Assembly: GCA_003554945.1 (NCBI GenBank)
Contig: PWHN01000010.1
Coordinates: forward strand, 1-34,857
Reading direction: 5' to 3'
Origin: a bacterium
GTDB lineage: Bacteria > T1Sed10-126
DNA: 34,857 nucleotides
In this document: one piece after another, positions 4,263 to 14,381 of the stretch
Layout: every line of letters begins with the position of its first letter
Position numbering within the stretch: the stretch's first letter is position 1
Program-made: the position numbers and the translations under genes
The notes under the pieces: model-generated
Database searches by the model: none
Seen by the model: the letters and a program-made list of their open reading frames with translations, nothing else
Told to the model about the DNA's origin: nothing

Positions 4263-4336
4263 AGCGGCGTAGCTCAGCGGTTTAGAGCACTCGGCTCATA
4301 TCCGAGTTGTCCGGGGTTCGAATCCCCGCGCCGCTA
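4263..4336 (+). tRNA. tRNA-Met (elongator, anticodon CAU)
   Basis: A 74-base cloverleaf. Acceptor AGCGGCG pairs fully with CGCCGCT. The D arm is GCTC...GAGC. The anticodon stem CTCGG/CCGAG encloses the CTCATAT loop with CAT anticodon, and the T arm is CGGGG TTCGAAT CCCCG. The stem lacks the three consecutive G:C pairs of initiators. The CAU anticodon could also belong to tRNA-Ile2 (modified to lysidine by TilS, encoded immediately downstream). The overall sequence looks more like elongator Met to me. CCA is not encoded in full. Confidence 0.9.
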
Positions 4337-4506: not shown

Positions 4507-5895
4507 ATGGCGATTATTGCCACACTTAAAGAATTTTTTCACGGCCGTGAGTCGGTAAGTGCGGGCGATCGATTGCTGGTTGCGGTTTCCGGTGGTCCCG
4601 ACTCGATGGCTCTTTTAGCAGCTATGACTGAAATTGCTGCTGACCTGGAGTTGCAGATTTACCCCTTGCATTACAACTACCGCCTCCAGGAGCAGGCCGC
4701 CGCCGGTGAGCAGGTGGTGCGTAGCTGGTGTGACGACCACGACCTCCCCCTGGTTGCCACCGCACTCCAGCAGCCGCAGGAATTAGAGACAGGCAGTGGC
4801 AGTCTGGAAGCCGAAGCCCGCCACCTGCGCTACCAGTTTTTTCAGCAGGCCGGCGCCTGTTTGGGGACCAATATGCTTCTGCTTGGTCATCAAAAGGATG
4901 ACCAGGTGGAAACCGTGCTTTTGAACCTGGGGCGGGGGAGCGGATTATACGGTCTACAGGGGATGCAGCCAGTAAGCCACTGGCGGCAGCTGGTGTTGCT
5001 GCGTCCACTGCTTGAGCACAGCCGACAAGAAATAATGGAATTTCTAAGGAGGCGGGAGATACCGTTTGTTACCGACCCGACTAACGAGGGACTTGAGTTT
5101 GCTCGCAACCGGCTTCGAAACCAGGTCCTGCCGGCCTGGGAAAAGGCCCAGCCGGCGCCCGCGGAAGCCATTTATAACCTGAGTCGTCGAACCGCAAGCG
5201 AAAATGATTTCTGGCAGCAGTATTTAAAAGATAATTTTTCCTATTCCAGTTGGCCGGGGGAAGTGCAGGTGGGAGTCGAGCAGTTGCGGGACAGTCATCC
5301 GGCAGAGCGCCGCCGCCTGTTGCATTTTCTTTGCCGGAAGTTAGAAGGGGGAGCCAAGTTGAGCGAGCAGAACCTTGAGGGCTTGGAGGAACTATCCTCG
5401 AGTGAAAAGTCGGGCCGGAGTCTCCATCTTCCCGGCGAACTTGAGGCGGTCCGGGAATATGACCGGCTGGCCATCTATCGTAAGGACAGTCTTGTCCCGC
5501 CGACCTCACCGGTTAATGTTGAGGTGCCGATGAACAAAAAGTGGGGTGACATTGGTGAAATTAATGTGAGCTCATCCGCTTCGACAGATGAAGGGGTTTA
5601 CCGTTCAGAGCTTCCACAGCATTTAATTGAGGGGGGTGTTTTACGTCTCTGGCAGGCGGGAGACCGAATAATATACAGGGGAAAACGTCGGAAATTAAAA
5701 GAAATTTTTGAAGCTGAAAGAGTTCCTTTCAGAGCCCGCCGTTGCTGGCCGGTTGTTGTTGCTGGAGGTGAAGTGGTAGCCGTGGTGGGATTGGCGGTTA
5801 AAGATGGTAATTTTTCAGAAAAAACTGTTATAATTAATTTTCAACCGGAACACGGAGTTTTCGCTCAGACAGGGAAGAAAAATGAAGGCGATTGA
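4507..5895 (+). CDS. tilS: tRNA(Ile)-lysidine synthase
   Basis: This enzyme converts cytidine 34 of the tRNA-Ile CAU anticodon to lysidine with ATP and lysine, so that the tRNA reads AUA as isoleucine. The 462-residue protein has the N-type PP-loop ATP pyrophosphatase motif VSGGPDS at residues 27-33 and the family sequence LHYNYRL followed by HQKDDQVETVLLNL (near 128-140). It ends with a TilS C-terminal domain (GGVLRLWQAGDRIIYRGKRRKLKEIF near 374-400), so the full two-domain form is present. The ribosome site before ATG 4507 is weak. The gene heads a same-strand run with hpt and folP, a common neighbourhood across bacteria. FtsH, often found in this cluster, is absent between hpt and folP. 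Confidence 0.95.
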   Translation: MAIIATLKEFFHGRESVSAGDRLLVAVSGGPDSMALLAAMTEIAADLELQIYPLHYNYRLQEQAAAGEQVVRSWCDDHDLPLVATALQQPQELETGSGSLEAEARHLRYQFFQQAGACLGTNMLLLGHQKDDQVETVLLNLGRGSGLYGLQGMQPVSHWRQLVLLRPLLEHSRQEIMEFLRRREIPFVTDPTNEGLEFARNRLRNQVLPAWEKAQPAPAEAIYNLSRRTASENDFWQQYLKDNFSYSSWPGEVQVGVEQLRDSHPAERRRLLHFLCRKLEGGAKLSEQNLEGLEELSSSEKSGRSLHLPGELEAVREYDRLAIYRKDSLVPPTSPVNVEVPMNKKWGDIGEINVSSSASTDEGVYRSELPQHLIEGGVLRLWQAGDRIIYRGKRRKLKEIFEAERVPFRARRCWPVVVAGGEVVAVVGLAVKDGNFSEKTVIINFQPEHGVFAQTGKKNEGD

Positions 5896-5953
5896 GGTGG
5901 ATAGAAAAGCTGCCTCATAAAAATGCCAGCTTAGACTAAATGGAGGTTAATTG

Positions 5954-6526
5954 ATGGTTGACCCGGGAAGTCAAGAGCACCTCGAAAAAATTATTGATTC
6001 AGTTGTTTTTGAAGCCGAAGAAATCCACCAGAAGGTAGTCAAACTGGGTGAAAAAATAACCCGTGATTATCAAGGGAAGGAACTTCTGGTTATTGGAGTA
6101 TTACGCGGCGCCTTTATGTTCATGGCTGATTTAGTGCGGCAGATCGAAGTTCCAATCTGTATGGATTTTATGCTTGTTTCCTCTTATGAAAACAGCCGAG
6201 AGACTTCTGGCATTGTGCGAATAATTAAGGACACCAAGGAAAATATTTATGAGCGGGACGTGCTTATAGTTGAAGATATCGTCGACAGTGGCTTAACCTA
6301 TCACAACTTGAGAAAGACGCTGGAGACACGGGATCCGGCTTCCCTGGCAGTCTGCAGCCTGCTAAATAAGGAAGCCAACCGGCAGGTAGATGTAGAAGTC
6401 GACTACTATGGATTTGATTCACCGGATGATTTTTTAGTCGGCTATGGTCTTGACTACAAGGAATACTACCGTGAGTGTCCCTTCATCTTCAAACCAACTG
6501 TGGAAGCGCTGCGGGAGCTCGATTGA
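5954..6526 (+). CDS. hpt: Hypoxanthine phosphoribosyltransferase
   Basis: A purine salvage enzyme transferring phosphoribose from PRPP to hypoxanthine or guanine. The 190-residue protein has the PRPP-binding loop LIVEDIVDSGLTY at about 104-116 and the upstream VLRGAFMFMADL. It also has the C-terminal substrate segment PDDFLVGYGLDY, all as in Hpt. ATG 5954 follows TGGAGG with 7 bases; a TTG one codon upstream is the alternative. It lies 58 bases after tilS, and its stop shares one base with the folP start (TGATG). Confidence 0.94.
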   Translation: MVDPGSQEHLEKIIDSVVFEAEEIHQKVVKLGEKITRDYQGKELLVIGVLRGAFMFMADLVRQIEVPICMDFMLVSSYENSRETSGIVRIIKDTKENIYERDVLIVEDIVDSGLTYHNLRKTLETRDPASLAVCSLLNKEANRQVDVEVDYYGFDSPDDFLVGYGLDYKEYYRECPFIFKPTVEALRELD

Positions 6527-7338
6527 TGTCGGTGGAAACAGAAATGAAAAATCTCCCGAAGCTAATGGCGATATTGAACGTCACGCCGGACTCATTTTAC
6601 GACGGCGGCGAATACAACCAAAAAAAAGAGTTGGTAGAACGAGCGCGCTGCGTTAGTGAGGCGGGGGCTGACATTCTGGACATAGGCGGGGTATCAACCC
6701 GTCCCGGAGCTTCTGAAGTGACGGAGGATGCGGAATTAGAGCGTGTTATTCCGGCTTTGACCGCCCTGCGTGAGGCAGGGATAGATACGGCGGTTTCTAT
6801 TGATACTTTTCGCGGTAGTGTGGCCGCGGCAGCCTGTGAACATGGAATTGCGATGGTTAATGATGTGACTGCTCTGCGCGCCGACCCAGAGCTGGCTGCG
6901 GTGGTAGCTGAAAATGATTTAAAACTGGTTCTAATGCACATGCAGGGTCGTCCCCAAACGATGCAGGAGAATCCGACTTACGACGACGTGATTGAAGAGA
7001 TTAATGCTTTTTTTGGGAAACGAATTGAGTTTGCCCTCAAACAGGGGTTGTCTGAAGAACAGTTGATTCTTGATCCGGGTGTAGGATTTGGGAAGCGGTT
7101 GAAGCACAATCGTCGTCTGCTTGCTGAAGTGGATCAGTTCAAGAAATTTGGTTTGCCGGTGCTCGTTGGGCACAGCCGGAAATCATATCTGGGTGACCTT
7201 TTGGGCCGGCCGGTGGAAGAGCGTCTGCCGGGGACACTGGCCACATCGGCCCGGCTTATACTAAAGGGAGTTGACGTCCTGCGGGTTCACGATGTTAAGG
7301 CCCATAAAGATCTGCTGGAAGTTTGGGACTGGTTGTAG
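6526..7338 (+). CDS. folP: Dihydropteroate synthase
   Basis: Condenses 6-hydroxymethyl-dihydropterin pyrophosphate with p-aminobenzoate in folate synthesis. The 270-residue TIM-barrel protein has both family signatures: ILNVTPDSFYDGG at 16-28 and LDIGGVSTRPGA at 51-62. Further conserved blocks are MVNDVTAL, ILDPGVGFGK and LVGHSRKSYL. I chose ATG 6526, which overlaps the hpt stop by one base and has GGGAG 8 bases upstream. The earlier in-frame ATG at 6475 would overlap hpt by 52 bases and adds non-family sequence; ATG 6544 is a shorter alternative. It is the target of sulfonamides in other bacteria. Confidence 0.95.
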   Translation: MSVETEMKNLPKLMAILNVTPDSFYDGGEYNQKKELVERARCVSEAGADILDIGGVSTRPGASEVTEDAELERVIPALTALREAGIDTAVSIDTFRGSVAAAACEHGIAMVNDVTALRADPELAAVVAENDLKLVLMHMQGRPQTMQENPTYDDVIEEINAFFGKRIEFALKQGLSEEQLILDPGVGFGKRLKHNRRLLAEVDQFKKFGLPVLVGHSRKSYLGDLLGRPVEERLPGTLATSARLILKGVDVLRVHDVKAHKDLLEVWDWL

Positions 7339-7404
7339 ACTTCATGGGGAAAGAGCTGGTTTTGTTAAGCAAAACCGGTATTTAAAATTACGAGGCGACA
7401 TATT

Positions 7405-8088
7405 ATGGTTGACATATCGTTTGTAGAACCGGAGCTTGAGCGGCGGCAAAAATTAGAGCTGCGGTTAAACAGTGGAGCATTGAAGGGGAAATATACTACC
7501 TTTATCAAGGATTTTTCGGCCTCCCGGATTGTTGTGGAAGTGCCTACGGTTGATCAGCTCTATCTGCCTGTTAATACCGGGCAGAATCTGTTTGTCGAAT
7601 ACAGGCGAATGTCAGCGCGCTATCAGTTTGAAAGCCGGGTGGTTGATCGCAAAGATGACGTTGAACCGCCGGTGCTTGAGCTTGAGCGGCCGGATTCTGT
7701 CAAGAGAATTCAGTTGCGCGATCATTTGCGCGTTCCCTGTTCCATTCCGGCTAAACTGAAGATAGAGAGTGATGTTCCGGACCCAATTCCCCCTAAATTG
7801 GAAGGCACTATTGTTGATCTGAGCGCCGGCGGCGCGAAATTCCGCGCCGAACTGGAACTTCCCATGTCGACGCGAGTTAACTTAAAATTTGAGCTGCCAA
7901 TTTTGGAAGAAGAAATGAACGATTTATATGGCTACATAATCAGGCGGGAAGAGGATGAGGTTGAGGAATGTTACTTTTATGGGATAGAATTTGAGGGAGT
8001 CCTCACAGATCAACGGAAGGCATTGACTCAATATAGCTACAGGCGACAACTTGAGCTTCAGAAAAAAGACAAGTGGGTGCAGGATTAA
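7405..8088 (+). CDS. PilZ-domain protein with YcgR-like N-terminal domain
   Basis: A predicted cyclic-di-GMP receptor of 227 residues. The N-terminal half (about 10-100) looks like the YcgR/YpfA-type flavodoxin-like (PilZN) beta domain (LPVNTGQNLFVEY...YQFESRVV). The PilZ barrel begins with RDHLRV at 105-110, giving the R-x3-R element, and continues to DLSAGG at 138-143, giving D-x-S-x-x-G; both c-di-GMP-binding elements are intact. YcgR-type proteins usually act at the flagellar motor or in exopolysaccharide control. Here the gene sits 66 bases after folP and is immediately followed (no gap) by cdaA, the cyclic-di-AMP synthase. No diguanylate cyclase lies in the window. Which output it controls cannot be read from sequence. 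Confidence 0.88.
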   Translation: MVDISFVEPELERRQKLELRLNSGALKGKYTTFIKDFSASRIVVEVPTVDQLYLPVNTGQNLFVEYRRMSARYQFESRVVDRKDDVEPPVLELERPDSVKRIQLRDHLRVPCSIPAKLKIESDVPDPIPPKLEGTIVDLSAGGAKFRAELELPMSTRVNLKFELPILEEEMNDLYGYIIRREEDEVEECYFYGIEFEGVLTDQRKALTQYSYRRQLELQKKDKWVQD

Positions 8089-8847
8089 ATGGTATTAATC
8101 GAAGTCTTACGATTTATGGCCTGGACAGACGTGCTTGACGTTTTTGTTGTTTTTCTCATCTTCTATGGGATTTATTTGAGTATTAGAGGCACGAGAGCGC
8201 TGCAGATTATGCTGGGCCTTGGATTATTTGTGGTTTTCCGAGGAGTGGGTGAGGTTTTGAACCTGCGGATGTTGAATGTTCTCTTCGCTCGTTTTCTCGA
8301 CGTTGGACTTATATTCGTGATAATTTTGTTTCAACCTGAATTGCGCTCTGGCTTCACTAACCTCGGTCGCCGCCGTTTCTGGGCTCTGTTTGAAGACCTG
8401 GAAAGCGAAGAATTGATCAATCGAATAGTCTGCTCCTGTCAAAAACTATCGCGTCGGGAAGTTGGGGCTTTAATAGCAATTGAGCGCGACGTCGGTCTCA
8501 AGAGCTACCTGGATACCGGCACCGAAATAGATTCCCTGGTAACTACAGATTTATTAACAACAATTTTTATGTCCAAGGGACCCTTGCACGACGGTGCCGT
8601 GGTGATAAAAGATAATAAAATTCTGGGCGCCGGGTGTGTTTTTCCGCTCAGTGATCGAACTGATTTACCGTCCAACTTCGGTACCCGTCATCGCGCAGCC
8701 GTTGGAATCGCTGAAGAGACTGACGCTGTCGTTATTTCTGTTTCTGAGGAGACGGGGAGCATAACCCTTGCCCATAAGCGTGATTTGCACGTTGATGTTG
8801 GTGTTGATGAACTTGAAGACCTTCTATACACATACCTAAACCAATGA
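8089..8847 (+). CDS. cdaA: Diadenylate cyclase CdaA (DisA_N domain)
   Basis: Makes cyclic-di-AMP from two ATP. The 252-residue protein has three N-terminal membrane helices (about 14-32, 36-52 and 64-82), then the DAC domain with the catalytic motifs DGA at 168-170 (LHDGAVVI) and GTRHRAA at 198-204. c-di-AMP typically governs potassium and osmolyte uptake and cell-wall homeostasis, which would suit a salt-adapted cell. The ATG directly abuts the stop of the PilZ gene, and the gene overlaps cdaR by ATGA. The cdaA-cdaR-glmM order is the classic one. Confidence 0.97.
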   Translation: MVLIEVLRFMAWTDVLDVFVVFLIFYGIYLSIRGTRALQIMLGLGLFVVFRGVGEVLNLRMLNVLFARFLDVGLIFVIILFQPELRSGFTNLGRRRFWALFEDLESEELINRIVCSCQKLSRREVGALIAIERDVGLKSYLDTGTEIDSLVTTDLLTTIFMSKGPLHDGAVVIKDNKILGAGCVFPLSDRTDLPSNFGTRHRAAVGIAEETDAVVISVSEETGSITLAHKRDLHVDVGVDELEDLLYTYLNQ

Positions 8848-9791
8848 ATTTAATCAGTTTTTTTCGCCGGTATATTTTAAAAAATTGGCCTGTTAAGCTA
8901 ATCTGCTTGCTGCTTGCCTTAAGCTTCTGGTTCTGGGTGGCTGTTCAGGATCGTGATACGCGTAGTTTCCGTGCACAGGTTGAATTTGTCGATCTGCCAG
9001 AAGGTTATACTGTTAGCGACCGGACTTCTCGTACTGTTACGATTAGTGTTCGTGGCCCTGAAACTGTCCTGGAACAATTCGATGATGACGACTTCAAAGT
9101 AGTCAGCACCCTGGAAGAATTTGACGGCGAAGAAACTGAAGGAGAAGTAAGAGTTTATCCCTGGGATGTTCAGCATCCGAGGGGACTCGAAGTTACATCT
9201 GTCGATCCGGGTGATCTGCAGGTGTTTTTAGAGCCGAAGATAAGTCGCGAGCTCATGCTGGAAGTTGAACCGGAGGCTCGTCCGTCCGACGGTTTTGAAT
9301 TACACAAAAATGTAACTCCGGAGACTGCTCTGGTAGCCGGGCCCCAGGAGAAAGTAACCGAAATGGAATCGCTACAGTTAGAACAGATAAGCTGGCCAAC
9401 TCCAGACGAAGCCGTCAAGGTTGAACAAATTGAAGCCAGGTTAGAGCCTTCAGTGGAGCTTAAATATCCAGAGACCGGTTTTTTTGAGGTTGAACTGCGA
9501 GTTGAGGAACCGCTGGAGAGCAGAACCTTTGAGGGGATACCGGTTGAAGTTATAGAAATTCCCGAAGGGATGGAGGCCACGGTCGAACCCGATCAGATTA
9601 GCTTTCAGGTTAAGGGTGATGCCGGTCTGATTGAAGAGTTGAGTTTGGAAGATATAGAAGTAATTGTAACCTCACCGACTGAGCCTGGCATGAGTATAGA
9701 GAATGCTTTGGTTGAGCTGCCTGAGGGAGTTGAAGCTGCTCCGGAATATGAGCTACAAAAGTCAGTAAAGGTGGAATTAATAGAAGAATGA
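8844..9791 (+). CDS. cdaR: YbbR-domain regulator CdaR
   Basis: A membrane-anchored protein of 315 residues. One N-terminal transmembrane helix (about 15-34, KLICLLLALSFWFWVAV) is followed by extracytoplasmic YbbR-type repeats: about 40-120, 125-210 and a partial copy at 220-310, recurring as beta-rich segments such as VEFVDLPEGYTV, VEPEARPSDGFEL and IPVEVIEIPEGME. In Firmicutes CdaR binds CdaA and modulates c-di-AMP synthesis. Start and stop overlap cdaA and glmM by four bases each, so the three are translationally coupled. It is strongly acidic, like its neighbours. Confidence 0.93.
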   Translation: MNLISFFRRYILKNWPVKLICLLLALSFWFWVAVQDRDTRSFRAQVEFVDLPEGYTVSDRTSRTVTISVRGPETVLEQFDDDDFKVVSTLEEFDGEETEGEVRVYPWDVQHPRGLEVTSVDPGDLQVFLEPKISRELMLEVEPEARPSDGFELHKNVTPETALVAGPQEKVTEMESLQLEQISWPTPDEAVKVEQIEARLEPSVELKYPETGFFEVELRVEEPLESRTFEGIPVEVIEIPEGMEATVEPDQISFQVKGDAGLIEELSLEDIEVIVTSPTEPGMSIENALVELPEGVEAAPEYELQKSVKVELIEE

Positions 9792-11125
9792 CTGAGTTGT
9801 TTGGTACTGATGGAATCCGTGGCGAGGTTAATCAGGGAAATTTAAAACCCGAAAAAATTCTCTCCATTTCCCGAGCTCTCGCTAGCTACTTGGCTCAAAA
9901 GTCTAAGCGGAAAGTAGTGCTTATCGGCCACGATGGCCGCCTCAGTGGGTCTTATCTGGCCAACCTGGCTGCCGCCGGCGTGCAGAGCGTTGGGCTCAAG
10001 GCAGCTCGGCTCGGACTCTGCTCGACGCCGTCGCTGGCTTTTTTGACCCGTCTCCGTGCAACTGCTGGCGGGGTCATGATTTCTGCCTCCCACAACCCTT
10101 TTTATGACAACGGCATAAAGCCTTTTGGGGAACACGGCAGCAAGTTTACGGTTGAACAGGAAGAGGAGGTCGAAACGTTACTGGAAACGAGTGACTTTAC
10201 TCTGGCCCGCCGCGAAAAAGTGGGGCCTTCAGAAAATGTTCAGGGTTGGTTAAGCGAATACGTTGAAGCGCTCTCCAATCGGTCTGTATTTTATCCTGGG
10301 CGTATTTTAGTGGATTGTGCGAACGGGGGGGCTTCCAGGCTTGTCCGGGAGGTATTCGAGGACAATTGTAACGCTCTGATAACGGTGAACGATTCGCCGG
10401 ACGGAGTGAATATAAATAAGGACTGTGGTAGTCTTAATGTGGAAAAATTAAAAGACGAAGTTCTTGAACAAGACGTTGATATTGGTTTTGCGTTGGACGG
10501 TGACGCAGATAGGTTGCTGGCTGTCGATGAAAAGGGAGAGGTGGTTAATGGCGACGCTTTAATGTATATGCTTGCAGTTGATCGTGCCTCACGGCAGGAG
10601 TTGGAAGGACTGATAATCACGGTAATGAGTAACCTGGGGTTGCGTAACAGTCTGTCCAGCGCCGGTGTTGACTACCAGGTGGTCGGGGTTGGTGACCGCC
10701 AGGTTTATCAGCGCTTGCGTGACCAGGGTTGGAATTTAGGTGGCGAGCAGTCGGGACATATTATTGACCGGGACTGGATGCCAACCGGTGACGGTCTGCA
10801 TACTCTGGCGGCTGTCCTGGAAATACTGGCCCGTGGAGACAAAAAATTGCACGAGTGGAATAGCGAAGTCCCCGAATATCCCCAGGTTTTGTTGAATTTT
10901 GAAGTGATTGCCAAGCCACCTCTGTCGAAACTGAAAGAAAGCACCGAAAAGATTGATAAAATAGAAACTAAACTCGGCGATGATGGTCGAGTGCTGGTCC
11001 GCTATTCCGGAACCGAACCACTGGTTCGGGTTATGCTGGAGGGTAAGGACGAGGCTGAGCTTGAAGCCTACGCCCGGGAAATCGGTGAGACGATTTGCGC
11101 GGAGATAAATGAAATTTCCAAATAG
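9788..11125 (+). CDS. glmM: Phosphoglucosamine mutase
   Basis: Interconverts glucosamine-6-phosphate and glucosamine-1-phosphate for UDP-GlcNAc synthesis. The 445-residue protein has all four alpha-phosphohexomutase motifs. The phosphoserine loop is ISASHNPF, with the active Ser at about 101. The Mg-binding loop is DGDADRL at 237-243. The sugar-binding motif is GEQSGHII, and the phosphate-binding loop is RYSGTEPLVRV near the C-terminus. It opens with the typical LFGTDGIRG. It overlaps cdaR by four bases. In other bacteria GlmM binds CdaA and inhibits it, which is consistent with the shared operon. Confidence 0.97.
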   Translation: MTELFGTDGIRGEVNQGNLKPEKILSISRALASYLAQKSKRKVVLIGHDGRLSGSYLANLAAAGVQSVGLKAARLGLCSTPSLAFLTRLRATAGGVMISASHNPFYDNGIKPFGEHGSKFTVEQEEEVETLLETSDFTLARREKVGPSENVQGWLSEYVEALSNRSVFYPGRILVDCANGGASRLVREVFEDNCNALITVNDSPDGVNINKDCGSLNVEKLKDEVLEQDVDIGFALDGDADRLLAVDEKGEVVNGDALMYMLAVDRASRQELEGLIITVMSNLGLRNSLSSAGVDYQVVGVGDRQVYQRLRDQGWNLGGEQSGHIIDRDWMPTGDGLHTLAAVLEILARGDKKLHEWNSEVPEYPQVLLNFEVIAKPPLSKLKESTEKIDKIETKLGDDGRVLVRYSGTEPLVRVMLEGKDEAELEAYAREIGETICAEINEISK

Positions 11126-11219
11126 ATTATAAGTCTGTTAAACCCCACGTATATCCTCCGCTTACCGTGAGATAGTAATTTTATGGGGTCTAAATTATGA
11201 AGATAACAAGGTGATTAGT

Positions 11220-11954
11220 ATGACCGATGTAAAATTAGGGGTAAATGTTGATCATGTGGCGACGGTTCGTGAAGCACGCGGTATAGATGTTCCTGATCCG
11301 GTCGCCGCCGCTTCTATTGTCGAAAGGAATGGCGCTGATTTAATAACAATACACCGTCGTCTCGATCAGCGGCACATAACTGACCGTGATCTTGAAATTT
11401 TGCGGCGCACTGTAAAGACACCTTTGAACTTAGAGCTGGCGGTTAATCCTGAGATTATCGACAAAGCACTACAGGTTGGTCCTGATAAAGTTACCCTGGT
11501 GCCCGAAAATCGGCAGGAGGTAACTACCGAGGGCGGCCTGGACGTAAAAAAAGCGCAGGAAAAGATCGTCGCTGCTGTGGAAAAATTTCAAAGCCGGGGA
11601 ATAGAGGTGGCTCTTTTTATTGATCCTGATTCAAAACAGCTGGAGGCCAGTCGTCAGACCGGCGCCAGAGCTGTTGAACTGCATACGGGTGATTATGCTG
11701 AAACAGAGCCGGCCAGCGTAGAACGATCACAGGCACTTGAACGGCTGGCGAAAGCTGCCCAAACAGGTGAAGAGCTGGGTCTGGAAATTTGCGCCGGTCA
11801 CGGTTTGAACTACAGGAACGTAAAACCGGTGGCCCGTCTGGCTCAGGTAGTTGAACTCAACATCGGTCACGCTATAGTGGCCCGCGCAGTGATGGTTGGT
11901 ATTGGTAAGGCAACACGGCAGATGAAACAGTTAATTCAGGAGGCTACAGAGTGA
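11220..11954 (+). CDS. pdxJ: Pyridoxine 5'-phosphate synthase
   Basis: The last step of the DXP-dependent vitamin B6 route, joining 1-deoxyxylulose-5-phosphate and 3-amino-2-oxopropyl phosphate. The 244-residue TIM barrel shows the family opening LGVNVDHVATVREARG (about 5-20), then LITIHRRLDQRHITD, TLVPENRQEVTTEGG and LEICAGHGLNYRNV. ATG 11220 is chosen because AAGGTG ends 6 bases before it; GTG 11211 is part of that ribosome site. It lies 94 bases after glmM and 1 base before glmS. GlmS does not use pyridoxal phosphate, so the linkage to amino-sugar genes is by gene order and not by an obvious cofactor need. Confidence 0.95.
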   Translation: MTDVKLGVNVDHVATVREARGIDVPDPVAAASIVERNGADLITIHRRLDQRHITDRDLEILRRTVKTPLNLELAVNPEIIDKALQVGPDKVTLVPENRQEVTTEGGLDVKKAQEKIVAAVEKFQSRGIEVALFIDPDSKQLEASRQTGARAVELHTGDYAETEPASVERSQALERLAKAAQTGEELGLEICAGHGLNYRNVKPVARLAQVVELNIGHAIVARAVMVGIGKATRQMKQLIQEATE

Positions 11955-11955
11955 T

Positions 11956-13782
11956 ATGTGTGGAATAACTGGTTATACCGGCTCAGCCCGAGCACTCCCG
12001 GTGATTATGGAGGCGCTGCATCGGTTGGAATACAGGGGCTATGATTCAGCAGGCGTGGCCGTCGAAGGAAAGGATGGCTTCTTCTTAAAAAAAGTGAAAG
12101 GAAAGATAGACGACCTTGATGCAGCCCTGGATGGGGTAGAAATAGAAGGTACCACCGGGATCGGCCACACCCGCTGGGCGACCCACGGGGAGCCTTCGCA
12201 GAAAAACGCCCACCCCCATTTCAGCATAGACAGAAATATAATGCTGGTTCACAACGGAATTATTGAGAACCATGACCGGCTGCGTGACCGGTTGCCGGAA
12301 GATATAGAATTTACTTCGGAAACAGATACAGAGGTGCTTGTCCATCTGCTTTCTGAAAATTATGATGGCGATTTAACTGAAGCAGTGCGATTCACCCTGG
12401 GAGAGGTTGAGGGATCTTTTGCGGTGGCCGTTGTTCATCGTGATGAGCCCGGTCGGATAGTTGCCGCCCGTTCCGGAAGTCCACTTATTATTGGCTGTGG
12501 GGGTGAAGGGAATTATGTCGCCTCTGATCTCCCGGCCTTGCTTGATTTCACGAACGAGGTTATTTTCCTGGATGAGGATGAAATCGCTACAATTGATTCC
12601 GATTCCATTACGGTGCAGACGATCGACGGAGAGGAGCGCAAAAAATCAGTCAACAGTATAAGCTGGGACGCTGTGCAGGCCCAAAAGGGTGGCTACAAAC
12701 ATTTCATGCTCAAGGAAATCGCTGAACAGCCTCAGGTGCTCCGGCAATCAATGCGGGGGCGTTTAGATAGCGAGGCGGGAATTGTAAAATTTCCCAATCT
12801 CGAACTTGATGATTCGATTTTTAAAAGAATAGAAAAAATTAATCTAATCGCCTGTGGCACCTCATATCACGCCTGTATGGTGGCTCGCTACTGGCTCGAA
12901 GAAATGACCGATCTACATGTTGAGGTCGATATTGGCTCCGAATACCGCTACCGTTCGCTAAACTACGAAGCGGACCGTGAGATGCTTGTAACCGTTAGTC
13001 AGAGCGGGGAGACGGCCGATACGCTGGCTGCTCTGCGAAAGGTCTCACGCCTGGACGTTCCGGTACTCTCTATCTGTAACGTCCTCGGCTCGACAATGGC
13101 CCGCGAAGCCGACGATGTCCTTTACACCCACGCCGGTCCTGAAATTGGCGTTGCTTCCACTAAGTCCTTCACAACCCAGCTACTCGTTCTATTTCTTTTT
13201 TCTTATTATCTTGGCCGGCTCAGGGGCAGTTTTGAAGGTGACAGGGAGCTGCTGGAAGCACTTGAACAAATTCCTGATCAGGTGGATCAGCAAATTCGAG
13301 ACAGAGAAATATATCAAAAAATTGCGGCCGAACAGTTTAAAAAGGAAGACTTCCTTTTCCTTGGTCGTCACCTTAACTATCCTGTTGCTATGGAGGGAGC
13401 TCTGAAGCTTAAAGAAATTTCTTACATTCACGCCGAAGGGTATCCCGCCGGTGAGATGAAGCACGGACCGATTGCTCTTATTGATGAGGAGATACCGGTT
13501 GTTGTTCTGGGCCCCCATAGCCGCGTCTACAACAAGATGTTGAGTAATATTGAAGAAGTTAAAGCTCGCGGAGGAATCGTTCTTGGCGTCTGTATGGAAG
13601 ACGATAAGCAAGGTATCGCCGAGATGTGTGACTATCTTATGCCGGTGCCCGACACCGAGGAACTGCTCACTCCTTTTCTGACCACACCACCGATGCAAAT
13701 ATTATCCTACGAGCTGGCGGTCCGCCGCGGCTGTGACGTAGACCAGCCCCGTAACCTGGCCAAGTCAGTGACAGTTGAGTAA
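11956..13782 (+). CDS. glmS: Glutamine-fructose-6-phosphate aminotransferase (isomerizing)
   Basis: Makes glucosamine-6-phosphate from fructose-6-phosphate and glutamine, the entry to UDP-GlcNAc. The 608-residue protein has an N-terminal Ntn glutaminase with Cys as residue 2 (MCGITGYTG) and the RLEYRGYDSAG, HTRWATHG and NAHPH motifs. Two SIS isomerase domains follow (IACGTSYHA...VSQSGETADT, and FLGRHLNYPVAMEGALKLKEISY...AEGYPAGEMKHGPIALI, quoted in parts), and the terminus is NLAKSVTVE. AGGAGG lies 12 bases upstream inside pdxJ. Only one base separates it from pdxJ, so there is no glmS ribozyme as in Firmicutes. Confidence 0.97.
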   Translation: MCGITGYTGSARALPVIMEALHRLEYRGYDSAGVAVEGKDGFFLKKVKGKIDDLDAALDGVEIEGTTGIGHTRWATHGEPSQKNAHPHFSIDRNIMLVHNGIIENHDRLRDRLPEDIEFTSETDTEVLVHLLSENYDGDLTEAVRFTLGEVEGSFAVAVVHRDEPGRIVAARSGSPLIIGCGGEGNYVASDLPALLDFTNEVIFLDEDEIATIDSDSITVQTIDGEERKKSVNSISWDAVQAQKGGYKHFMLKEIAEQPQVLRQSMRGRLDSEAGIVKFPNLELDDSIFKRIEKINLIACGTSYHACMVARYWLEEMTDLHVEVDIGSEYRYRSLNYEADREMLVTVSQSGETADTLAALRKVSRLDVPVLSICNVLGSTMAREADDVLYTHAGPEIGVASTKSFTTQLLVLFLFSYYLGRLRGSFEGDRELLEALEQIPDQVDQQIRDREIYQKIAAEQFKKEDFLFLGRHLNYPVAMEGALKLKEISYIHAEGYPAGEMKHGPIALIDEEIPVVVLGPHSRVYNKMLSNIEEVKARGGIVLGVCMEDDKQGIAEMCDYLMPVPDTEELLTPFLTTPPMQILSYELAVRRGCDVDQPRNLAKSVTVE

Positions 13783-13928
13783 AAGTTTCCTGACCTGGTT
13801 TGAGTACCTTCTGGGCAGCCCCCCTTTTTTTTTCTGAATATCTTTAATATAATAGTTCGCTTGGGAATTGTCTTCCCTGGAAAAAATTGTTATCAAAAAC
13901 CCCGAACAAGAGCAAAGGAGAGTTAAGA

Positions 13929-14381
13929 ATGGCAATAGGATTGGAGATGTACCGGCAGCAGCGAGAAGAAGAAAAACGTCGCGAGCGGATGCGTGACAAG
14001 TTGAATAAAGTCAGCAAAGAATGTGAAATTCTGATTCGTAAACACGAGAGACAGCGGTTTATGAGGGTCTATATTTTGATGTCGTTTGATCGTATTATTC
14101 ATGAGCTTGCTTACCGTCGTTCGCTTGGCGTGGCTTCTGTAGAAGTGCGTGAGGAAGACGACGGCATGTATGTTGACCTTGAGGTGCAAAACAAAGAGAT
14201 GACCCAGACGGACGTGCGTGAAATTCTTGAGGAAAACCTCCGTGACAAGCATACATTTAACCTGGTGAAAGCGCTCAGTTTTGTCGATGATTTCGAAATT
14301 TCGCCTGGTGACGAGGGCGGAGTCAAGCTGGAAGCCACCAAAAAACTGAACACGGAGATCATCGACAAATCTGAAAGTTGA
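13929..14381 (+). CDS. Conserved-looking hypothetical protein, 150 residues
   Basis: I do not recognise a family. ATG 13929 follows AAGGAG at good spacing; an earlier in-frame ATG at 13887 lacks a site. The first 45 residues form a highly charged helix (MYRQQREEEKRRERMRDKL, a likely coiled coil), followed by a mixed helical segment (MRVYILMSFDRIIHELAYRR). The C-terminal half looks alpha/beta (ASVEVREEDDGMYVDLEVQ, VREILEENL). There is no signal peptide or membrane helix, so it is probably cytosolic. It lies 146 bases after glmS and 192 before the polyacidic TPR gene. Codon use and acidity resemble its neighbours, arguing for a resident gene. Confidence 0.7.
   Translation: MAIGLEMYRQQREEEKRRERMRDKLNKVSKECEILIRKHERQRFMRVYILMSFDRIIHELAYRRSLGVASVEVREEDDGMYVDLEVQNKEMTQTDVREILEENLRDKHTFNLVKALSFVDDFEISPGDEGGVKLEATKKLNTEIIDKSES

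Follow-up and report, generated by a model that had tools for sequence, protein, structure and literature searches.

A predicted MotI/YcgR-type PilZ gene adjoining the diadenylate cyclase gene cdaA in three candidate phyla

The protein of solved structure that most closely resembles the one reported here is MotI (YpfA, DgrA) of Bacillus subtilis, a flagellar clutch that works by binding MotA, and the receptor YcgR has been mapped to FliG, FliM and MotA (both from the accessible portions of PMC8203827 and PMC7064775). A YcgR homologue from Leptospira, LIC_11920, offers a second point of comparison. It binds c-di-GMP without interacting with c-di-AMP, but differs from our protein in carrying an extra inserted domain (PMC11800159, in the sections available). 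The Leptospira genes for YcgR and CdaA are not reported as neighbours in the available parts of PMC11800159 and PMC12974146.

The control of c-di-AMP levels is incompletely understood. The operon-encoded proteins established as partners of the diadenylate cyclase CdaA are CdaR and GlmM, which regulate its activity (PMC13289029 and PMC8573169, accessible text), and Arg126 of B. subtilis CdaA is needed for GlmM binding (PMC8573169, same portion). In Leptospira interrogans, a 19-gene cdaA operon also includes flagella structure genes (PMC12974146, accessible text). The available portions of this literature on cdaA operons (PMC12974146, PMC13289029, PMC8573169) mention no PilZ gene.

In the current study, we analysed a 34,857-nucleotide stretch of bacterial DNA (the window; contig PWHN01000010.1 of assembly GCA_003554945.1) in which a gene for a predicted PilZ-type receptor directly precedes cdaA. 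Such a receptor gene, kept upstream of cdaA in three deep lineages, would offer a concrete and testable case in which the two messengers may be wired together directly.

The locus and its PilZ protein

All genes of the locus are located on the forward strand. They begin with tilS (4507-5895; Pfam ATP_bind_3, TilS and TilS_C), a phosphoribosyltransferase gene, hpt (5951-6526; Pribosyltran), and the dihydropteroate synthase gene folP (6475-7338; Pterin_bind, E 2e-80), whose true start probably lies downstream of position 6475. A GAGG sequence resembling a ribosome-binding site (7392-7395) is found 9 nt upstream of the start of pilZ (7405-8088), which encodes 227 amino acids. As originally predicted, pilZ abuts cdaA (8089-8847) without a gap: the TAA stop codon at 8086-8088 directly precedes the ATG at 8089-8091. 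The two genes had also been called fused, but they are separate reading frames, which rules out a PilZ-CdaA fusion protein and leaves adjacency as the proper description. The cdaA frame overlaps by 4 nt with cdaR (ybbR; 8844-9791; Pfam YbbR), the gene for the CdaA regulator, which is followed by the phosphoglucosamine mutase gene glmM (9788-11125; PGM_PMM I-IV), pdxJ (11211-11954; PdxJ) and glmS (11956-13782; SIS and GATase domains). Thus, cdaR, glmM and glmS are indeed all present downstream of cdaA as had been claimed, although pdxJ separates the last two.

The tilS and pilZ-cdaA genes probably belong to one transcription unit. Between positions 4300 and 14000 there are 14 promoter-like sites, compared with 8.2 (sd 2.9) expected, and nine terminator-like sites, compared with 11.3 expected. 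Two of the promoter-like sites fall within pilZ itself (7859-7888 and 7961-7990, forward strand, nine of 12 positions matching, as consensus matches only), and transcripts that carry cdaA but not the whole of pilZ may therefore exist as well.

The PilZ protein carries an N-terminal PilZNR (YcgR-N) domain at residues 15-96 (E 9e-11; 42.2 bits against a cut-off of 23) and a PilZ domain at residues 103-212 (E 9e-16; 58.5 bits against 22.5). Its translation contains both motifs used to recognize c-di-GMP receptors as defined in the available part of PMC11800159, namely RxxxR (R105-DHL-R109) and DxSxxG (D138-LSAG-G143). This agrees with the original description of a YcgR-like protein with intact binding residues, and we infer that the protein binds c-di-GMP.

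By sequence profile, the closest solved structure is MotI (YpfA) from B. subtilis (PDB 5vx6, E 5.8e-18). A predicted model of the PilZ protein (mean pLDDT 88, pTM 0.53) likewise had MotI/DgrA as its top Foldseek match (E 5.7e-12, TM 0.43), and VIA-align superimposed the two over 200 residues with a Z score of 16.4 and an rmsd of 14.6. Other two-domain PilZ structures scored nearly as well, with Z values of 15.4 for 3kyf, 14.3 for 2gjg and 1yln, which include VCA0042, and 13.7 for Escherichia coli YcgR. MotI is thus the top match by both sequence and structure, and it shares with the window protein the two-domain PilZ architecture and both aligned c-di-GMP motifs. The differences are that the two proteins are only about 20 percent identical and that the window gene is part of a cdaA operon, where it directly abuts the gene for the cyclase. 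Given that the protein scores 21.6 bits with the NCBIfam model for the YcgR equivalog FlgBrkeYgcR (NF047947), far below the 400 required, we place it in the wider YcgR/MotI family only and not as an equivalog. The best reading of these sequence and model comparisons is that pilZ encodes a predicted receptor of the MotI/YcgR type, which is a known kind of protein.

The cyclase is conventional. The 252-amino-acid protein is a membrane diadenylate cyclase with CdaA_N and DAC domains and intact DGA and RHR motifs, and it scores 218.9 bits with the equivalog model TIGR00159 (cut-off 188.8). With cdaR and glmM downstream on the same strand, the window has the same gene order as the cdaA-cdaR-glmM operon of Firmicutes, and the DGA and RHR motifs are common to both. 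Window CdaA also has an arginine at the position matching B. subtilis Arg126, as counted by hand on an alignment with 9g0g, which we assumed is numbered like B. subtilis CdaA. The difference from the Firmicutes operon is the presence of pilZ between folP and cdaA.

Recurrence of the folP-pilZ-cdaA-cdaR order

We searched 386 genomes with a four-protein PilZ profile and a four-protein CdaA profile and then read the flanking DNA. Matches to CdaA were present in 293 genomes (E 1e-15), and a separate search for the PilZNR domain gave matches in 74. The order folP-pilZ-cdaA-cdaR was found in seven of the 386: the window genome (G000), G001 (bacterium isolate CSSed10_354m, PWOD01000098), G029 (Ca. 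Lindowbacteria, MFPR01000014), G176, G312, G068 (Ca. Hydrogenedentota isolate J006, RFFU01000094) and G209 (Ca. Hydrogenedentes CG07, PEWQ01000093). Because both profiles were built from four of these seven genomes, the top ranking of the linked proteins arises partly by construction, whereas their adjacency does not. The junction is present in every genome searched from the three phyla concerned, which amounts to two of two for the phylum of the window, three of three for that of G029 and two of two for that of G068; named members of the three phyla are the CSSed10 isolate, Ca. Lindowbacteria and ‘Ca. Hydrogenedentes’. The original prediction that cdaA operons do not normally include pilZ is supported by its occurrence there in seven of 386 genomes, and the neighbourhood survey it had proposed finds the junction in related genomes, where its absence would have suggested chance placement. 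This recurrence rules out chance placement.

A contig search with the window PilZ protein as the sole query yielded no match. A second contig search recovered 76 PilZ loci, four of which have an adjoining cdaA (G001, G029, G068 and G209, all among the seven); within the flanks of the other 72, some of which are short, there was no match to window cdaA at E 1e-8. In a further 24 genomes, among the CdaA matches listed and with coordinates compared by eye, PilZNR and CdaA are encoded apart.

If cdaA is taken to begin at the earliest start codon in its frame, pilZ and cdaA overlap by 4 nt (ATGA or GTGA) in G001, G029, G068 and G209 and by 8 nt in G176, and an overlap in G312 is implied by match coordinates (pilZ to 8786, cdaA from 8786). 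We infer that the two genes are translationally coupled and reside on one transcript, such that PilZ and CdaA would be co-translated. The outer genes vary. Immediately upstream of folP there is hpt in the phylum of the window, hpt followed by ftsH in that of G029 and ftsH in that of G068 (ftsH being assigned by reading translations). Downstream of cdaR the linked genomes have glmM-pdxJ-glmS, glmM or pdxJ. The G068 and G209 loci (12.5 and 9.7 kb) give no match to glmM or glmS at E 1e-8, and G068 CdaR matches window CdaR weakly (E 7e-8). G001, the nearest relative, has an order identical to that of the window, tilS-hpt-folP-pilZ-cdaA-cdaR-glmM-pdxJ-glmS. Its folP (locus L057, 6726-7565, reverse strand) appears as two same-frame ORFs split by an in-frame stop, which may be a sequencing error or a real break.

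The more common state of this locus is evident from control neighbourhoods. We examined cdaA loci from 57 other families, drawn from the better-scoring CdaA matches listed and in several cases ending at contig ends, together with two additional loci (L150 and L151). A profile search of the ORFs, which may miss very divergent PilZ proteins, uncovered no pilZ in the cdaA operon of any of the 57; the sole PilZ match in the control loci is encoded on the opposite strand, downstream of cdaA, in G067 (L200). The gene directly upstream of cdaA encodes a Pterin_bind (FolP) protein in 43 of the 55 cases scanned, which are the 57 loci minus L196 and L210, where there is no upstream ORF, and with L150 and L151 left out. 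PilZ is not among the 25 families listed for these upstream neighbours, from which single-member families may be absent. These results argue against PilZ as a general member of cdaA operons. With folP directly next to cdaA as the usual arrangement, pilZ has the look of a gene inserted between the two.

Another informative genome is G356, in which folP, pilZ and pdxJ are consecutive with neither cdaA nor cdaR between them (L063, 3391-6323) and two DAC proteins are encoded elsewhere, in frames of 365 and 343 amino acids. Two genomes of the same phylum, G086 and G226, have folP-cdaA-cdaR-glmM-pdxJ without pilZ (cdaR by reading), and searches of both gave no match for FliG or for a YcgR-like PilZ protein. 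All eight aligned PilZ proteins (the seven linked proteins plus that of G356) match both PilZNR and PilZ at E 0.001, and both c-di-GMP motifs are kept in all eight alignment rows as read by eye.

Phylogenetic trees provide some information on the origin of the arrangement. The seven linked PilZ proteins lie on one side of a branch whose support is only 70/83, in a tree with many long branches. That tree included G356 twice (G356_op and L036), and one copy was left out of a later test, based on a quick tree, that did not reject a single clade of all eight proteins (p 0.793). For CdaA, the groups of the window and of G029 come together (95/67), whereas G068 and G209 lie apart beside another family (99/86, starred), so that the linked genes occupy two places in the free tree. 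When linked CdaA proteins were held as one clade, the constraint was not rejected (AU p 0.557) and scored slightly higher than the free tree. Accordingly, the insertion of pilZ might have been one ancient event or two, and we claim neither.

We also noted a sequence correlate among the cyclases. A Lys-Gly pair before the catalytic LHDGA (residues 163-164 of window CdaA) is found in six of the seven pilZ-linked proteins and is absent in G068, while the second position before LHDGA is Ser or Thr in 56 of 59 other CdaA proteins. This correlate emerged when about 250 columns were scanned without prior plan, and the lineages that share the pair are possibly related; we give it little weight.

Our literature search, which covered few subscription journals, found no description of a pilZ-cdaA gene pair. 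The arrangement is real, recurrent and, within the reach of our searches, undescribed.

Possible targets of the PilZ protein

The explanation that we favour, with a confidence that goes no further than an even chance, is that a MotI/YcgR-type receptor was inserted in the folP-cdaA-cdaR operon, where it acts as a MotI-like motor brake that is co-expressed with the cyclase. By this account, pilZ would have entered between folP and cdaA of a widespread operon, and its product would now be co-translated with the diadenylate cyclase. When bound to c-di-GMP, PilZ would engage the stator or the switch of the flagellar motor, its presumed target, and slow or disengage it. The link to c-di-AMP would then be that a brake suited to a surface lifestyle is expressed jointly with genes for the cell wall and osmotic control, with no direct contact between PilZ and CdaA as regulator and enzyme. 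Even if the protein is only a flagellar clutch, motility braking would be expressed together with osmotic and wall control.

Several observations are consistent with this proposal. FliG_C is encoded in all seven linked genomes as well as in G356 and G386, and so the hosts have flagellar motors, while FliG is missing from the two pilZ-less genomes G086 and G226. PilZNR is matched exactly once per genome in the seven linked genomes and in G356 (that of G209, at 22.2 bits, is just below the cut-off of 23), and as the sole receptor of this type in each flagellated linked genome, the protein most likely has the job of MotI as its main one. GGDEF proteins were found in all 11 genomes tested, with 12 matches in the window genome. 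The G356 arrangement, in which pilZ follows folP without cdaA, also counts in favour of a clutch, as do the flagella structure genes in the L. interrogans cdaA operon. Furthermore, CdaA mobility in B. subtilis is unchanged by deletion of dgrA, in an experiment that tracked CdaA as an unrelated control (PMC7064775, accessible portion); this is a different organism, and gene linkage there is not mentioned in that portion. In our small set of genomes, the presence of pilZ thus follows that of flagella no less closely than that of cdaA.

Other findings weigh against a clutch. The pilZ gene is not surrounded by flagellar genes; the closest ones observed, for FliS and flagellin, lie about 12 kb further downstream in the window. 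MotI scores only slightly higher than other two-domain PilZ structures (Z 16.4 versus 15.4), and the score with the NCBIfam YcgR equivalog model is far below its cut-off. The window genome encodes two further PilZ proteins, of 352 and 124 amino acids, without a PilZNR match, and the larger of these could be the motor receptor instead. Given that the draft genomes are 81 to 94 percent complete, a second PilZNR gene could also be missing from them. Retention of the junction in three phyla would be expected as well if PilZ acted on CdaA, whose known partners, CdaR and GlmM, are likewise encoded in the operon (PMC8573169, available part).

A less probable alternative is that PilZ regulates the cyclase, with the c-di-GMP-bound protein docking on the membrane domain of CdaA, on its cyclase domain or on CdaR to raise or lower c-di-AMP production. 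The pilZ and cdaA frames touch or overlap in all seven linked genomes (G312 from match coordinates), the core folP-pilZ-cdaA-cdaR is kept in three phyla while outer genes change, and CdaR and GlmM are precedents for operon-encoded partners of CdaA (PMC13289029 and PMC8573169, in part). The Lys-Gly pair of six of the seven linked cyclases, where the second residue is Ser or Thr in 56 of 59 other CdaA proteins, also counts in favour, but it is missing in G068 and carries the caveats noted above. Moreover, folP-cdaA-cdaR is conserved by itself, so that a gene inserted there could persist passively; in G356, folP and pilZ have stayed together with no cdaA alongside; and B. subtilis CdaA moves the same without DgrA (PMC7064775, accessible portion). 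The original prediction had proposed that the level of c-di-GMP could have an influence on the synthesis of c-di-AMP or on amino-sugar flux. The last two observations, together with the presence of a sole PilZNR match per flagellated linked genome in a protein nearest to a flagellar clutch, leave such cross-talk as a fair hypothesis and not a result, possible but so far unsupported. In its strongest form, the idea is that c-di-AMP synthesis in the three candidate phyla is gated directly by a dedicated c-di-GMP receptor made in co-translation with CdaA, and this we consider doubtful. If true, the level of one cyclic dinucleotide would govern, through a hard-wired switch, how much of the other is made.

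Passive retention could also be the whole explanation, in that pilZ landed at the junction and stays there since cdaA became translationally dependent on it, its position saying nothing about function. The grouping of the seven linked PilZ proteins on one side of a branch (70/83) and the single origin of linked CdaA that was not rejected (p 0.557) are compatible with such neutral hitch-hiking. YcgR-like PilZ genes of other families also occur in non-flagellar surroundings, as in locus L008, among pyrimidine-synthesis and rlmN-like genes, and in L007, beside a sugar-kinase-like gene (names from reading translations). Nevertheless, we consider this unlikely, as retention in seven of seven genomes from three phyla amid a changing neighbourhood is long for a neutral state. 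Very improbable is an action of PilZ on a nearby envelope or metabolic partner (FolP, GlmM, GlmS or FtsH) that would link c-di-GMP to the supply of wall precursors. It would account for folP as a neighbour in eight of eight cases, including G356, and for glmM and glmS downstream in the window, but the G068 and G209 loci have no match to either glm gene (E 1e-8), and we know of no PilZ protein of this type that targets such enzymes. The flagellar clutch stays our preferred reading.

Other features of the window

An Rfam scan of the window gave two tRNAs as the only matches above gathering score, with no riboswitch or other RNA at the operon. Downstream of glmS, a 164-amino-acid ORF (13887-14381) matches neither Pfam nor NCBIfam at the thresholds that we applied. 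Upstream of tilS, positions 1944-2591 encode a 215-amino-acid protein with similarity to CcmP, a shell protein of beta-carboxysomes (NCBIfam NF053796), although its 211.5 bits are below the cut-off of 340 and its Pfam BMC match is weak; no other window ORF scanned matches a shell protein. Positions 1253-1857 encode a DUF6922 protein followed by a 109-amino-acid ORF that matches AbiEii model positions 11-44 of 238, and these two ORFs are possibly the remnant of a type IV toxin-antitoxin system.
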